Shown here one piece after another: positions 53,974-60,111 of a DNA stretch of 64,000 nt (the stretch's first letter is position 1; the number at the start of each line of letters is the position of its first letter). A model generated the notes under the pieces. The model had not been told where the DNA came from and searched no databases. It saw only the letters and a list, made by a program, of their open reading frames with translations. The stretch is from contig CP126122.1 of assembly GCA_030123565.1 (NCBI GenBank), positions 755,001 through 819,000 on the forward strand, read 5' to 3'. Made by a program: the position numbers and the translations under genes. This stretch comes from Nitrospira sp. GTDB taxonomy: Bacteria > Nitrospirota > Nitrospiria > Nitrospirales > Nitrospiraceae.

Positions 53974-54059
53974 CAGCGTGAGAGGTCTTGCCGATCGGTT
54001 TTTTCAATTTATTTCTCGAACGGTCAGGGTTGCGATACAGTGACCGTCATACATACGGG

Positions 54060-54449
54060 ATGGTACGTATGAACGGCACTGCAGGGCAGGAACAGTTCTC
54101 CGTCGATTTACGCCAGCATCCACGCTTACGGATTCCGGCGCCCTTTGTCTGTTCGCTGTCCCGTCTCGGGTTGGCCAAGTGGCTCAGTCGAGGGGGCGAC
54201 GGCATCGGGGTGGTCTTCGATGTGTCGATGAAGGGAGCGAAGGTGATGAGTGAGGCGGGCATTCAGCGCGGCGACAGGCTGTCGATCAGCCTGTCCCTAC
54301 CCAATCAGGCCTCGCCGATGACGGTGGAGGAAGCCGCCGTGCGCTGGGAGAAGGATCAGGTCTATGGATTGGAGTTCGTGGATCTGTCCCCGGTGGCGGA
54401 GATGCGGCTGCGAAAGTTCATCACGATCGCAATGAAACCCGCGTCATAA
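54060..54449 (+). CDS. PilZ-domain protein (1 of 3)
   Basis: This 129-residue protein has the c-di-GMP binding motifs RQHPR (RxxxR, near residue 19) and DVSMKGAKV (D/NxSxxG). The rest is a single PilZ barrel with AAVRWEKDQVYGLEFVDLSP. It has no partner domain and so acts as an adaptor. It precedes the LpxL-like acyltransferase; two more PilZ proteins follow it. The start could also be at 54069. Confidence 0.8.
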   Translation: MVRMNGTAGQEQFSVDLRQHPRLRIPAPFVCSLSRLGLAKWLSRGGDGIGVVFDVSMKGAKVMSEAGIQRGDRLSISLSLPNQASPMTVEEAAVRWEKDQVYGLEFVDLSPVAEMRLRKFITIAMKPAS

Positions 54450-54544
54450 CCTCCGTCGGCTGTTCGCTTCCTTGGGCCCGCCCGTCCGAGGTTGATGATT
54501 GCGCTCGCCGCTCCGTTTCCCTACAATGGCCTCCCCATTCGTCC

Positions 54545-55483
54545 ATGTCCAGCACGAATACAGGAAGTCACCGGCGGCAGCCGAGTAGTCTCTATCATCC
54601 GTTCTATTGGCCTACCTGGATGGGAGTCGGACTGTTTCGCTTCCTTTCTTTCCTTCCCTATCGCTGGCAGCTCGAGCTTGGGCGGCAATGCGGGCGCTTG
54701 CTGCACAGTCTGCTCACCAAGCGGCGGGAGATCGTACGGGTGAATTTGGCGTTGTGCTTTCCTCACCAGGAGCCGGCAGAGCGCGACAAGGTTACGCTGC
54801 ACTGCTTCGAGTCCATGGGGATGGGTGTGATGGAGATCGCGCTCGCCTGGTGGGCGAAGGATCCTCGAACCCATTGCGAGTGCACCATCAAGGGATTGGA
54901 ATACATTCGAGAAGCGCTCCGGGAGGGGCGGGGGGTGTTGCTGTGCGGGGCCCATCTCCATACGGCGGAACTCGCCGGCCGCCTCATGACGTTGGAGCAA
55001 CCGGTGGCCATCGTGTACCGGCCGCAGAACGATGTCGTGGCGGAAACGATCTCGAATCGCTGCCGCAGCCGATATTATGAGGAATTGATCCAGCACCGGG
55101 ACATGCGGGGCATTCTGCGGGCCCTGGCTAAGAACCGGGTGGTATGGTACGCCCCCGATATCGACGCGGGGTCGAAGCGCAGTGTGTTCGCACCGTTTTT
55201 CGGGGTGCCGGCGGCATCCCTCACCGCTACGTCCAGACTGGCGAAGGTCAGCGGCGCGGCGGTGGTGCCTTGCTTCTATTACCGGCGGGCCGATGGAACC
55301 GGCTACGATATCGAAGTGGGGCCGGCGCTCGATCGGTTTCCTTCGGGCGAGGTGCTGCAGGACACGGTGCGCATCAACCACCTGATCGAAGGCGCCGTCA
55401 GCCGCGTGCCGGAGCAGTATTTTTGGCAGCATCGGCGCTTCAAGAGCCGTCCGCCGGGCGAACCGCCGGTCTATCGGCGGTAA
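54545..55483 (+). CDS. LpxL/HtrB-family lipid A acyltransferase
   Basis: This 312-residue membrane-associated acyltransferase has one N-terminal hydrophobic anchor (WMGVGLFRFLSFLPYRW), the H(x)4E catalytic motif in GAHLHTAELAGR, the PQNDVVAE region, the substrate-site ALAKNRVVWYAPDID, and the C-terminal PEQYFWQHRRFKSRPPG. It adds a secondary acyl chain to lipid A or a related lipid, evidence for lipopolysaccharide in this diderm. It is flanked by PilZ proteins on both sides; functional coupling is possible but unproven. Confidence 0.85.
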   Translation: MSSTNTGSHRRQPSSLYHPFYWPTWMGVGLFRFLSFLPYRWQLELGRQCGRLLHSLLTKRREIVRVNLALCFPHQEPAERDKVTLHCFESMGMGVMEIALAWWAKDPRTHCECTIKGLEYIREALREGRGVLLCGAHLHTAELAGRLMTLEQPVAIVYRPQNDVVAETISNRCRSRYYEELIQHRDMRGILRALAKNRVVWYAPDIDAGSKRSVFAPFFGVPAASLTATSRLAKVSGAAVVPCFYYRRADGTGYDIEVGPALDRFPSGEVLQDTVRINHLIEGAVSRVPEQYFWQHRRFKSRPPGEPPVYRR

Positions 55484-55633
55484 CCGTTCCCCCTGTGCGT
55501 CGTTCTCATCGCGATGATGTCGTCGAGCCGGAGTTCCTTCTGTGAAATGACGAGAAGTATTCGGCGGTTCCGGCCTCTTGCGTTATACTGATTCCGGTTG
55601 GGCGCAGGAGAAGGTCGCGCCGCTCGCTCCGTC

Positions 55634-56014
55634 ATGGATCAATCCGATCAGTCACCCGCCAAGCGCATCGAGTTACGGCAGCACCGGCGTTGCGCCGTTC
55701 CCCCGACCTGCCTGCTCTCGTTCGCCCGCTTCGCGCTGTCCATCACCTTCAGCGGCGATGCGGAAGGAGAGGGGGCCGTAATCAATCTCTCCCTCAAGGG
55801 ATGCAAAGTCGACAGCGACGCGGGGGTCAAGGTCGGCGATGCGATGTCCCTGATCATCCTGCTTCCGGGGGAGGAGCCTCCGACCACCGTCGATCTCGCC
55901 CTGGTGCGTTGGGCGCAAGGACCGTGTTTTGGGTTGGAGTTCGTATCCATCGGGCCGGCGGAGGTGAATCGACTGCGCCGGTTTCTCGCGTCCGCCGGCC
56001 TGTCCGAGCCGTAA
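55634..56014 (+). CDS. PilZ-domain protein (2 of 3)
   Basis: The start at 55634 gives 126 residues. PilZ motifs are RQHRR (RxxxR) and NLSLKGCKV (NxSxxG), followed by LALVRWAQGPCFGLEFVSIG. Sequence and length parallel PilZ 1, so the two are likely paralogues. A longer start at 55598 is possible. It follows the acyltransferase after 150 bases. Confidence 0.8.
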   Translation: MDQSDQSPAKRIELRQHRRCAVPPTCLLSFARFALSITFSGDAEGEGAVINLSLKGCKVDSDAGVKVGDAMSLIILLPGEEPPTTVDLALVRWAQGPCFGLEFVSIGPAEVNRLRRFLASAGLSEP

Positions 56015-56066
56015 ACCGGTGCAGCGGTTTATGGACGGCCGTCCGGTCTGGGAGGGAGGAGAAAGC

Positions 56067-56396
56067 GTGGAAAAAGCGAAAGAGCTGCGGAAGTCCCGTC
56101 GAGTGGCGATCGGGTGCCGGTTGGCGTTCTCCGGCGAGGATGAGGTGGAGGGCGAGGCGGAGGTCCTTGATCTCTCCTTCACCGGCTGTATGGCGAAGTC
56201 GGAGATCGCGGTGCAACCGGGACTCCAGATGAAGGTGTCACTGTTCCTGTCGGACGGACATGAATGGCCGGTCCGTGTGGATGAAGCCATTGTCCGCTGG
56301 GCCAGGGGCGGCGAGTTCGGGGTAGAGTTTCTGGCCATGCGGCCTCCGCAACTTCGGCGGATCCAGCAGTTCGTCATCAAGACCAAGCCCTTGTGA
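56067..56396 (+). CDS. PilZ-domain protein (3 of 3)
   Basis: A GTG at 56067 with GGAG 5 bases upstream gives 109 residues. Motifs are RKSRR (RxxxR) and DLSFTGCMA (DxSxxG), then EAIVRWARGGEFGVEFLAM. It is shorter than the others because it lacks their N-terminal extension. It lies 52 bases after PilZ 2 and probably shares its transcript. Confidence 0.8.
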   Translation: MEKAKELRKSRRVAIGCRLAFSGEDEVEGEAEVLDLSFTGCMAKSEIAVQPGLQMKVSLFLSDGHEWPVRVDEAIVRWARGGEFGVEFLAMRPPQLRRIQQFVIKTKPL

Positions 56397-56604: not shown

Positions 56605-57384
56605 ATGATCGAGTGGTTGGGACGCAAAGCCATCGCAGGCTACACCTACCTGACGGCCCTGGCCACACTCTCGTCGCAAGCCTTTCTGGATCTGGCGCTT
56701 CCTGCTAAGCAGGGACGCCGGGAAACCCTGTGGGTCCTGGTCCGGCAAATTCTCTTCACTGGTGTGGATGCCCTGCCGGTGACGACCGTCATCGCCCTCC
56801 TGTTGGGGATCATCATCATCACGCAGGCGGGGACGCAGCTTCCCAGGCTCGGGGCCGGTGAACTGGTGGGCAGCATCATCGTCGTGACCGTCATACGAGA
56901 ACTGGGGCCTCTGTTGACGGCCTTCATCGTGGTGGGCCGCTCCGGCACGGCCATCGCGATCGAATTGGGCAACATGTCGGTCACGCGGGAGGTGGTCGCC
57001 CTCCGGCTCATGGGGATTCCGATCAGCCGGTTCGTCATCATGCCCCGCATGGTCGGTATGGTACTGTCGATGATCTGCCTGACATTGTATTTCGACGTGG
57101 TCGCCGTCCTCGGAGGCTACCTGGTCGCCAACGCCCAACTCACGATTCCCTTCTATGCGTTTGTGGAGGGGGTGATCAAGGCGCTGTCTTCGACCGATGT
57201 CGCGTTGACTGCGTTCAAAGGATTGCTGTTCGGATCGGCCGTCGCGGCAGTCTGTTGTCACCATGGGCTGTCCGTTGAATCGTCGTTCACGGAGGTGCCG
57301 CAACAGACGACGCGGGCCATGATCAATTCGTTCGTCCTGTGCCTGCTGATCGATGTCGTCGTGACGGTGCCTCTGTACCTATGA
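56605..57384 (+). CDS. mlaE: MlaE-type ABC lipid transporter permease
   Basis: This 259-residue integral membrane protein has the MlaE pattern: LFTGVDALPVTTVIALLLGI, VTVIRELGPLLTAFIVVGRS, GTAIAIELGNMSVTREVVAL, and MPRMVGMVLSMICLTLYFD. It forms the membrane core that moves phospholipid between the inner membrane and MlaD. Its stop overlaps the mlaF start (ATGA). The region upstream (56397-56604) holds the likely promoter. Confidence 0.9.
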   Translation: MIEWLGRKAIAGYTYLTALATLSSQAFLDLALPAKQGRRETLWVLVRQILFTGVDALPVTTVIALLLGIIIITQAGTQLPRLGAGELVGSIIVVTVIRELGPLLTAFIVVGRSGTAIAIELGNMSVTREVVALRLMGIPISRFVIMPRMVGMVLSMICLTLYFDVVAVLGGYLVANAQLTIPFYAFVEGVIKALSSTDVALTAFKGLLFGSAVAAVCCHHGLSVESSFTEVPQQTTRAMINSFVLCLLIDVVVTVPLYL

Positions 57385-58112
57385 AGCAAGCGGCCCTCCT
57401 GCTGGAACAGGTCCGGATGCCCATGCCGGGAACTCTCCACCGACTGGAGGTGGATCTGCGGATCGACGCGGGCGAGTTCGTCGCCCTGGTGGGGCCGAGC
57501 CGCTCGGGAAAAAGTTTGATCGTGGAATTGGCGGCGGGATTGGTCGCTCCGGAAACGGGCCGGGTGGTCCTGTTGGGGCACGAGTGGGTGGAGGAGTCGG
57601 CCGATGGGTACAGCCCTGTTCGACTCCGGCTCGGAACCGTCCTGCAGCAACCGGGGCTCCTGAGCAATATGACGCTTTTCAACAACGTGGCCCTGCCGTT
57701 GCGATATCACCGTACCTCCATGACGGAAGGCGATCGCGAGCAGGTCGTGATGATGCAGCTGGAGCGGCTGAGGTTAGCGCCGATGCGGGATCGTTTTCCT
57801 GCCGAACTCAATCAAGGCGAGGTGCGCAGGGGGGCCATCGCCCGCGCCATGGTCCTCGATCCGGAAGTGCTCCTGCTGGATGATCCCACGGCGGGGCTGG
57901 ATGCGCAGATGGTGCCGGTGCTCACCGCCTATGTGAAGGAGCAGAGGACGCTCCGGCCGCTGACGGTCATTGCGGCGTTGCGTTCATTTTCGCCATTCGT
58001 CGAAGGGGCCGGTCGCTTCGTGTTGCTTCGCGACGGCCGCGTGGAGGCCGAAGGGGCCCGTGACGCGCTGGCCGGCAGCGTCCCCCCGGCGTTCAGAATG
58101 TATGTGGAGTAG
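57381..58112 (+). CDS. mlaF: MlaF-like ABC ATPase with altered catalytic motifs
   Basis: This 243-residue ABC subunit is coupled to mlaE. Walker A is intact (GPSRSGKS, 38-45) and the Q-loop is present (VLQQPGLLS). However, the signature is LNQGEVRR (143-150) instead of LSGGxxRR, Walker B reads VLLLDDPT with D168 where the catalytic Glu should be, and the H-loop His is not seen; TVIAALRSF (195-203) stands at its place. ATP binding should persist, but hydrolysis is expected to be weak or absent unless another ATPase subunit contributes. It lies in the operon mlaE-mlaF-mlaD. Confidence 0.85.
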   Translation: MKQAALLLEQVRMPMPGTLHRLEVDLRIDAGEFVALVGPSRSGKSLIVELAAGLVAPETGRVVLLGHEWVEESADGYSPVRLRLGTVLQQPGLLSNMTLFNNVALPLRYHRTSMTEGDREQVVMMQLERLRLAPMRDRFPAELNQGEVRRGAIARAMVLDPEVLLLDDPTAGLDAQMVPVLTAYVKEQRTLRPLTVIAALRSFSPFVEGAGRFVLLRDGRVEAEGARDALAGSVPPAFRMYVE

Positions 58113-58156: not shown

Positions 58157-59152
58157 ATGGCCATGCATTATTCCCATCGGCTGTCCAGTGGGCGGTTGGC
58201 GCAGATCGTCGGGACGTTCATCCTGATTCCCGTCCTGATCCTGGCTGTGGCCGCTTTCTGGATGGCGAAGACCGAGCATCTCTTCGAGCCCACCTACCAT
58301 GTGAAGGCCAGCCTGAGCAAATCGTACGGCCTGGAGCCCGGCTCGCCGGTCGTCGTGTCGGGGATTCCGATCGGGCGGGTGCAGCAGGTGGATCTCAACG
58401 ATCGCGGGACCGTCGATCTGACCCTGCGGTTGCTGGCTCGGTATCAAACCATGGTGAAGGACAATTCGGAGCTGCGTATCACCAAGAGCGGTGTGGTGGT
58501 TGGCCAAACACAGGTCGATATAGGGATGGGCACCTCCGGCAGTCCGATGTTGACCGATGGAGCGACGATTCGCGCGGTTGAACCGAGAGACATCGGGGAT
58601 CTCGTCAACGAGATCGAACCGGTCCTGGCGGCAGTGAAACAAACGTTGTTGCGCGTCGAGACCATGACGCAGGACCTGCAGGGCGGGCTGAAAGCCGGCA
58701 GCAAGGCGTTGGAGCAGGTGGCACAGGCGACGCAAGACCTACCGGCCGTCGTTGCATCGGTGCAACGGACGGTCGCTTCGGTGGAGCAGACGGCTGCTGC
58801 GTTGCCCGGGATGGCCGGTTCGATGAAGCGGACGTTGGGTCTGGTCGATCGTGTGACGGCGGACGTGCAACAGACTGCGAGTAAATTACCGGCTGTCCTG
58901 GACGGCGCTCAATCGACGCTGGCCAGCGTGAAGCGCCTCTCGGACTCCGTGGGCGAAGTGAGTCAGGAACTGGTTCCCGTCGTCCAGACGGCGCAGGTCA
59001 CGTTGTCGGACCTGTCGGTCCTGGTGCGGGGAGCGAAACAGACGTTTCCGTTCAACCGCTTTGCGCAGAACGCCGGGCCGGCTCCGAAACAGCCATCCGG
59101 CGTTCCTCCTTCCGGCCTCCCGAGCCTGCGGGGGGATCAACTCCGTCGATGA
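58157..59152 (+). CDS. mlaD: MlaD-type MCE-domain protein
   Basis: This 331-residue protein has one N-terminal TM helix (FILIPVLILAVAAFWMA) and an MCE domain at about 45-150 (VKASLSKSYGLEPGSPVVVS, GIPIGRVQQVDL, ITKSGVVVGQTQVDIGMG). From about 150 to 295 it has long helical, coiled-coil repeats (TVASVEQTAAALPGMAGSMK, TLASVKRLSDSVGEVSQELV), and a Pro-rich tail. It bridges the MlaFE complex to periplasmic carriers, and the long helices may form a tunnel or needle as in PqiB/LetB-like proteins. GAGAGGTGAGCG precedes the start. The stop overlaps the TPR lipoprotein start. Confidence 0.88.
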   Translation: MAMHYSHRLSSGRLAQIVGTFILIPVLILAVAAFWMAKTEHLFEPTYHVKASLSKSYGLEPGSPVVVSGIPIGRVQQVDLNDRGTVDLTLRLLARYQTMVKDNSELRITKSGVVVGQTQVDIGMGTSGSPMLTDGATIRAVEPRDIGDLVNEIEPVLAAVKQTLLRVETMTQDLQGGLKAGSKALEQVAQATQDLPAVVASVQRTVASVEQTAAALPGMAGSMKRTLGLVDRVTADVQQTASKLPAVLDGAQSTLASVKRLSDSVGEVSQELVPVVQTAQVTLSDLSVLVRGAKQTFPFNRFAQNAGPAPKQPSGVPPSGLPSLRGDQLRR

Positions 59153-60111
59153 CCATGGGGGTGCATGATTTCGTCAAGGGCTGCTGCGCGGTGGCGGGGA
59201 TGGTTCTCCTCGGTTGCGCACATCCTCCACCGCCGGCGCCGGTTCCTGCTCCGTCGCCTAGGCCCTTGACTGCGCAGGTCGAATCGTTGCGCCGACAGGG
59301 CGACCGTTGGTTGACCAAAGGGGATACGGCCAGAGCGGAAGAGGCCTATGAGGCGGCAAGTCGGATGGCGGAGAGCCTCGACGATGTGAAGGGGCTCATC
59401 GAAGCGCTCAATGATCTCGGCAACGTGGCCATGAGTCGAGGGGCAACCGCTCGGGCCGTCACGCTCCACGGACGGGCGGTCGCCTTGGCCCAACGAGCAG
59501 GGGATCCCCGCCTCCTGATCGAGAGTCTCACTGCGGCGGGGGCAGCCGAACATCGCGAAGGACGCTTGCAGGAAGCAGAACGGCTCGATCAACAGGCTCT
59601 GGACCTGGCCCTCCAAACGGCAGATCGTCAGGCAGAGGCGGTCCTGCGCAACAATCTAGGGTTGTTGCTGCAAGCGAAGGGTGATGTTGAACAGGCCGAG
59701 CAATTCTTCCGACAGGCGATGGTCTTGAACCAAGCGTCGGGGGACGCGGCGGCGGAGGCCAGCAACCATGTGAACCTTGGAATCTTGGCGGAGGGCCGCC
59801 GGGACCATGAGGCGGCGGAACGGGAATTCGAGCGGGCGTTGGAACTGGACAAGGCGGCGGAGCGCCGGTCCGAGATTGCCGCCGATCTGTTGCGACTGGG
59901 CCGGCTTGCCGATCGCGGAGGATTGTCCGATCGTGCGCTGGCCTATGCCGAGCGGGCCTATCGCAGTTATCTGGCGCAGGGGAACGTGACCGAGGCGATG
60001 TCGGCCTTGACCCAGGCAGTGGCCTGGGCTGGAAAGGCCGGACGTACAGGGGACGTTGCACGGTTGGAGAGAGAATTGAGCGGGTTACGGTCGCACGCGC
60101 CGGGACGGTAG
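59149..60111 (+). CDS. TPR-repeat lipoprotein in the mla operon
   Basis: This 320-residue protein has a lipoprotein signal (VAGMVLLGC) followed by a Pro-rich linker and six to seven TPR-like repeats (GDTARAEEAYEAASRMAESL, LLIESLTAAGAAEHREGRLQ, GDVEQAEQFFRQAMVLNQAS, NHVNLGILAEGRRDHEAAER). The ATGA overlap with mlaD shows translational coupling. TPRs bind partner proteins; it may take the role of outer-membrane-side components in Mla, which has no MlaA or MlaB here. This is inference from position. Confidence 0.75.
   Translation: MTMGVHDFVKGCCAVAGMVLLGCAHPPPPAPVPAPSPRPLTAQVESLRRQGDRWLTKGDTARAEEAYEAASRMAESLDDVKGLIEALNDLGNVAMSRGATARAVTLHGRAVALAQRAGDPRLLIESLTAAGAAEHREGRLQEAERLDQQALDLALQTADRQAEAVLRNNLGLLLQAKGDVEQAEQFFRQAMVLNQASGDAAAEASNHVNLGILAEGRRDHEAAEREFERALELDKAAERRSEIAADLLRLGRLADRGGLSDRALAYAERAYRSYLAQGNVTEAMSALTQAVAWAGKAGRTGDVARLERELSGLRSHAPGR

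Follow-up and report, generated by a model that had tools for sequence, protein, structure and literature searches.

A degenerate MlaF in a conserved MlaE/MCE operon of Nitrospira, a candidate pseudo-ATPase scaffold of a passive lipid conduit

The DNA analysed here (the window, 64,000 nucleotides) belongs to a Nitrospira genome of 4.6 Mb in one contig. Between positions 56605 and 60111 (+) it carries four genes in one run, the first three of which are named here mlaE*, mlaF* and mlaD*. The permease subunit MlaE* (56605..57384, +; 259 aa) matches Pfam PF02405 (MlaE) with 208 bits. The mlaF* gene (57381..58112, +) encodes an ABC-type nucleotide-binding domain (NBD) subunit of 243 aa with degenerate catalytic motifs, matching PF00005 (ABC_tran) with 83 bits, and mlaD* (58157..59152, +) an MCE-domain protein of 331 aa with a long C-terminal stretch (PF02470, 58.6 bits). 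The fourth gene (59149..60111, +) encodes a TPR-repeat protein of 320 aa (TPR_12, 102.8 bits), the N-terminus of which bears a lipobox-like LLGC, as read by eye without a predictor; a lipobox pattern was found in 25 of 37 TPR proteins, a figure too crude to be relied on, as upstream reading frames are counted in. Genes for an MlaE (PF02405) and an MCE (PF02470) protein adjoin mlaF*, as is characteristic of an MlaE/MCE ABC transporter operon, and the gene, its coordinates and its mlaE-mlaF-mlaD arrangement agree with the original prediction made from the sequence of this locus. MlaF* is encoded by the sole NBD gene of the operon, and no MlaB or MlaC gene was found among the four operon genes. 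The order mlaE-mlaF-mlaD-TPR recurs in most of the relatives' loci long enough to show it.

The ATG of mlaF* lies inside the stop codon of mlaE*, resulting in a 4-nt overlap. A GTG start at 57339 was considered and disfavoured, since the ATG at 57381 and the 4-nt overlap are conserved. Just upstream of mlaE* (53988-56396), three PilZ-domain genes are interleaved with an LpxL-type acyltransferase gene (54545-55483), an arrangement kept in those genus loci that have long flanks, as well as in G039.

The best solved relatives of MlaF* are MlaF proteins. An AlphaFold2 model of MlaF* computed with 13 close orthologs was poor (pLDDT 48.5) and was set aside; when seven distant canonical ABC proteins were added, the pLDDT was 91.2, and the top Foldseek match of the model was E. 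coli MlaF (6xgz, E 8.6e-22, TMq 0.89). This modelling supports an MlaF-like ABC fold for MlaF*; since the second model leans on canonical relatives, it supports the fold and not the details of the site. Against the NCBIfam MlaF equivalog NF008809 the protein scored 99 bits for a cut-off of 441, a failure which alone says little because that model is narrow. By relationship, the system is a variant of the MCE/ABC lipid transporters, the MlaF* of which fails the catalytic features that define MlaF.

The motif positions were read in register from a HMMER alignment with solved MlaF and from a MAFFT alignment with canonical paralogs. MlaF* lacks three features of a canonical MlaF, namely the LSGG signature, the catalytic Glu and the H-loop His. 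LNQGE (57807..57821, +) replaces LSGG(M/Q), Asp168 occupies the catalytic Glu position in the Walker B and D-loop stretch LLLDDPTAGLD (57870..57902, +), and Arg201 (57981..57983, +) stands at the H-loop His position (TVIAALRS versus TVVMVTHD). The original prediction had named the Asp and the altered signature correctly, as well as the missing His, but had put Ala in the H-loop. It had also called Walker A intact, which is wrong at one position: GPSRSGKS (57492..57515, +) has Arg41 as its fourth residue, where the canonical residue is Gly. Lys44 and Ser45 of Walker A, the Walker B Asp167, the D-loop Asp174 and the Q-loop Gln89 (57645..57647, +) are retained, the last being Glu, Ala, His or other residues in some orthologs. 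The alignment with MlaF that had been proposed as a check recovered neither the catalytic Glu nor the His in register, and a misalignment hiding either of them is excluded by the HMMER alignment with solved MlaF and the MAFFT alignment with the paralogs. Since in an NBD dimer Walker A lies opposite the signature of the partner subunit, we also considered a salt bridge between Arg41 and Glu147 that would replace ATP across a nucleotide-free dimer. It found no support in covariation, since orthologs without Arg41 (L065, L086-L089) still have a Glu at the signature position.

In a survey confined to the Nitrospirota, mlaF* orthologs were found in 27 of 29 genomes of the genus, 41 of 175 of the family and 46 of 235 of the order. 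Of 172 family genomes, 41 have an ortholog of mlaE* (E <= 1e-78), and these are exactly the genomes that carry mlaF*; at the thresholds used, the remaining two genus genomes yielded neither gene. Phylum searches with two mlaE* queries returned 41 and 47 of 395 genomes, or 75 genomes combined by our own count, assuming the same 395-genome set for both. The mlaF* gene was read beside mlaE* in 82 distinct loci (56 + 26) from 13 Nitrospirota families, as numbered in the genome set. The first 56 orthologs comprise 27 of the genus, 14 of other members of the family and 15 outer ones; for the second set 30 loci were read, giving 26 new ones, three repeats and one at a contig end without a match (L166). 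Among the weak f27/f28 matches of the phylum search, L180 (G304) alone was read; its mlaE* match has four in-frame stops and is possibly a decayed copy, of family f28.

By aligned position, an SGG signature is present in none of the 56 orthologs. The catalytic Glu was found in seven (0/27 genus, 3/14 other family, 4/15 outer) and the H-loop His in three, all of them from other genera of the family. Asp, Glu and His occur together in a single ortholog (L077), and in this one the signature and the Ser/Thr of Walker A are missing. Gly as the fourth residue of Walker A is present in 9/56; Arg takes its place in all 27 genus orthologs and in 13 of the 14 other family members. The equivalents of Asp168 and Arg201 are likewise Asp and Arg in 27/27 genus orthologs, including one that ends at a contig edge with all motif positions still visible (L060), and the genus also keeps the Walker A Lys and Ser, the Walker B Asp and the D-loop Asp without exception. 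Beyond the genus the retained residues vary as well. The Walker B Asp is found in 51/56 orthologs, Glu or His standing there in five of the 14 non-genus family members, and the Q-loop Gln in 43/56 (25/27 genus, 12/14 other family, 6/15 outer). In two loci, L068 and L071 (G033, G032), Arg replaces the Lys of Walker A, and there a gap of 560 or 235 nt separates mlaE* from mlaF*.

As a control we used canonical MlaF proteins of two further Mla systems, called here A and B. The 50 proteins of system B come from Nitrospirota genomes in which mlaE* is present too (49 were read with mlaF* as well, and G195 with mlaE* alone). All 13 motif residues are present in 49 of these 50 system B proteins, the remaining one being truncated, and all motif residues in 7/7 system A MlaF. 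With Arg41, Asp168 and Arg201 in every genus ortholog and complete motifs in the canonical controls, neither chance nor sequencing error can account for the changes. In G195 the mlaE* relative (L090, 4908-5687) is a lone gene, without mlaF* or mlaD* adjoining.

The loss goes deeper in the 26 further orthologs. The Walker A pattern GxxxxGK(S/T), found in 42/56 of the first set, occurs in none of them, nor does DE at Walker B (0/26). The plain signature pattern matches three of these 26 Walker-less proteins and one of the 56 and, as far as it can be placed, lies elsewhere in the protein. All ten Walker-less proteins tested nevertheless match ABC_tran, nine above the curated cut-off and one just below it (L170). 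Judged from these motifs, the Nitrospirota proteins are a series leading from a retained P-loop with lost hydrolysis motifs in Nitrospira to no nucleotide site, and in several other families MlaF* can hardly bind nucleotide.

Selection was measured by the method of Nei and Gojobori as the median dN/dS of 69 close pairs (of 300) from 25 genomes, which was 0.188 for mlaF*, 0.047 for mlaE*, 0.068 for mlaD* and 0.042 for system B mlaF. The medians of 20 pairs from the Walker-less set were 0.158 for mlaF* and 0.083 for mlaE*, and no stop codon was found in the 28 mlaF* frames of this set. The mlaF* gene is under clear purifying selection, about four times weaker than that on a working MlaF; with a dN/dS far below 1 and no stops, it is maintained and not rotting. 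A decaying relic, for which the relaxation relative to canonical MlaF would speak, can scarcely be credited in view of this ratio, the uninterrupted frames, the invariant blocks and the retention across the phylum. The same values bear on another reading, according to which MlaE*, MlaF*, MlaD* and the TPR protein would form not a transporter but a complex between the membranes that senses lipid or serves as a tether. The TPR protein as fourth gene would suit such a complex, as would the genus-conserved PilZ-domain and LpxL-type genes upstream. However, the family domains of MlaE* and MlaD* score well above cut-off and mlaE* is the slowest-evolving gene of the operon, which fits a conserved transmembrane path, and we hold this reading to be very improbable.

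Among the best conserved parts of MlaF* are the 20 residues after the Q-loop, PGLLSNMTLFNNVALPLRYH (57651..57710, +). In 40 orthologs their mean entropy is 0.24 bits, compared with 1.26 for the whole of MlaF*, 0.46 for Walker A, 0.40 for Walker B, 1.02 for the H-loop and 0.89 for the post-signature stretch; canonical MlaF is conserved almost throughout (0.41 bits overall). A form of this stretch persists even in the Walker-less relatives. From general knowledge of ABC proteins we take it to be the expected docking site of the MlaE coupling helix.

MlaF* and MlaE* also appear linked at the level of gene arrangement and descent. The 4-nt overlap is found in 26/26 genus loci and an overlap of 1-4 nt in 26/28 Walker-less loci; it is rarer in two intermediate sets (8/14 and 2/9). 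In a midpoint-rooted tree of 67 MlaE proteins, sampled from the partners of degenerate MlaF and from systems A and B, all partners of degenerate MlaF fall on one side of a 100/97 branch and systems A and B on the other; several long branches of this tree were flagged, and L180 was entered with X for its stops. Near the C-terminus the MlaE* group has TEVPQ or TEIPQ, where canonical MlaE has GLG-ATT.

The genome of the window has two further mlaE genes, both accompanied by an mlaF and an MCE gene of their own, and the two MlaF (E <= 1e-50) show the usual LSGGM, DEP and THD/SHE motifs. A canonical MlaF of system A or B could power MlaE* in trans, with MlaF* as a regulator or heterodimer partner, much as the original prediction had supposed that another ATPase might take its place. 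In most of the Walker-less genomes checked there is also a canonical-type MlaE accompanied by an MlaF-like match, and a single MceG serves several mycobacterial Mce transporters, as described in PMC9947336. The search for a second MlaF, which that prediction had called for, did find two, but neither is spare, as each adjoins its own mlaE. Two of the next-best relatives were read and rejected as spare MlaF, one adjoining an FtsX-like gene (L012) and the other looking LolD/MacB-like (L013), both names being given by reading. In G178, G262, G354, G368 and G396 the single MlaF-like match (E <= 1e-30) lies beside the one other mlaE of the genome. Moreover, mlaF* is translationally coupled to mlaE*, and both defects reside in one protein, unlike known degenerate heterodimers, in which the defects of one site are spread over opposite subunits. 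Sharing of a canonical MlaF with MlaE* is possible but not suggested by the gene content, and we regard a borrowed ATPase as distinctly unlikely. Two other MlaE or MCE proteins deserve mention. A canonical MlaE of system A (L010, 4115-5236, -; 373 aa) has a long N-terminal extension, STAS-like by eye, and outside the window, at G000:C1:3676213-3677265, a single open frame encodes a protein with three MCE domains, which may be of the PqiB/LetB type.

In a hydrolysis-competent ABC site, one subunit contributes the P-loop, the Asp and Glu of Walker B and the His, and the other subunit the signature. An MlaF* homodimer, if formed, would lack the base, the His and the signature in both of its sites. 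In many families the nucleotide site is gone and the operon is kept, which argues that the system needs no ATP hydrolysis, and the phylum-wide loss of catalytic motifs under purifying selection lends strong support to the original proposal of a transporter that works without normal ATP turnover. The explanation we favour, with a probability of roughly 0.56, is that MlaF* is a pseudo-ATPase scaffold and that MlaE*, MlaD* and the TPR protein form a passive lipid conduit. MlaF* would be produced in step with MlaE*, dock on its cytoplasmic side and clamp the MlaE* dimer together without driving it by ATP hydrolysis. MlaE*, MlaD* and the putative TPR lipoprotein would then constitute a conduit between the inner and outer membranes, through which lipid would pass down its gradient, the complex being a facilitator and not a pump. 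Such a conduit would coexist with two Mla systems whose MlaF has all catalytic motifs. The passive lipid conduit, one of the examples given in the original interpretation, is thus the reading we favour by inference.

For Nitrospira itself, nucleotide may still bind to MlaF*, as Lys44, Ser45, Asp167 and Gln89 remain, and ATP binding might act as a gate. The P-loop, Walker B and D-loop residues kept in the genus are odd for a pure scaffold and suggest that nucleotide may matter there. A stronger form of this view, which we rate as unlikely, holds that Nitrospira MlaF* is a slow ATPase or an ATP-gated switch and that only the other families are fully nucleotide-free. Asp168 would be a poor base, Arg41 and Arg201 would contact phosphate in place of Gly and His, and slow turnover or binding would gate the permease. 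The Walker A Lys and Ser, the Walker B Asp and the D-loop Asp invariant in 27/27 genus orthologs and the Gln in 25/27 are consistent with it, as is the invariance of Arg41, Asp168 and Arg201 themselves, and degenerate ABC sites with a Glu-to-Asp change can hydrolyse slowly according to PMC7756269, which also weighs against a pure scaffold. On the other hand, signature, base and His are lost in one polypeptide, so that in a homodimer both sites would be hit, each of them on both faces; the dN/dS of mlaF* exceeds that of canonical mlaF about fourfold, and sister genera with the same operon have also lost the Walker A Lys/Ser or the Walker B Asp.

Published work bears on the scaffold and passive conduit from both sides. 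A hydrolysis-dead TAP mutant is described as a passive bidirectional facilitator (PMC4242082), which offers a precedent, and spontaneous transfer from MlaD to MlaC without ATP is reported in the review PMC10212509. In the same review, hydrolysis of ATP is linked both with retrograde transport and with a block of the spontaneous MlaD-to-MlaC flow. The retrograde transport suggested in the original interpretation therefore finds no support, and loss of hydrolysis would favour downhill flow in either direction. A dead NBD is not harmless in known systems: Walker B mutants of mycobacterial MceG fail to stabilise Mce1 and Mce4, as stated in PMC9947336, and E. coli MlaF E170Q has about 80% less ATPase activity and a growth defect, as stated in PMC7784689.

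The operon resembles MlaFEDB of E. coli, A. baumannii and P. aeruginosa (PDB 6xbd, 7d06, 7ch8) in encoding MlaE-, MlaF- and MCE-type subunits together. It differs in that the catalytic Glu, the signature, the His and the Walker A Gly of MlaF* are replaced, in that the operon has a TPR protein as fourth gene and no MlaB or MlaC gene, and in the length of MlaF* (243 versus 269 aa), so that it seems to lack the C-terminal extension which in MlaF wraps the neighbour. PqiABC and LetAB transport lipid by means of MCE proteins and have no ABC ATPase subunit, and their membrane subunits are not of MlaE type; the present system, by comparison, retains both MlaE and the NBD fold. Heterodimeric ABC exporters such as TAP, TM287/288 and MRP1 likewise show a Glu-to-Asp change with altered His and signature, as described in PMC7756269. 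These exporters pair two NBDs and keep one canonical site, whereas here one NBD gene has all the defects and a homodimer would be left without any canonical site. Mycobacterial Mce systems also combine an MCE transporter, MlaE-like permeases and an ABC subunit, but MceG, unlike MlaF*, has canonical motifs, is shared, and needs its Walker B residues (PMC9947336).

The minimal MlaEFD of Veillonella parvula is similar in layout, its operon encoding MlaE and MlaF together with a long MlaD; its MlaF is described as closely resembling the model MlaF, and the passages of PMC10665443 consulted mention no degenerate motif. That survey of Mla in 1083 genomes identified MlaF by synteny and omitted it from the phylogeny because its annotation was uncertain, and its main text contains no Nitrospir- term. 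A degenerate MlaF family, in Nitrospirota or elsewhere, was not found reported in the literature searched, the coverage of which was incomplete. Surveys that count MlaF by synteny alone may score dead ATPases as live.

It is still debated whether MCE/Mla systems need ATP, and in which direction they move lipid in its absence. A natural lineage with an apparently inactivated ATPase that then lost its nucleotide site, the permease and MCE partners being under strong selection, makes the question of ATP testable, as it would offer the same fold and the same partners without a motor, beside Mla systems with complete ATPases in the same cells. Extended to the phylum, the proposal that these are lipid transporters working without ATP, with the NBD fold kept as a nucleotide-free clamp for a permease of MlaE type and with downhill flow through the MCE conduit, has in our estimate about an even chance of being right. 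If true, this would be a clear natural case of the NBD of an ABC transporter turned scaffold, and the steps from motor to scaffold could be read across the Nitrospirota series.
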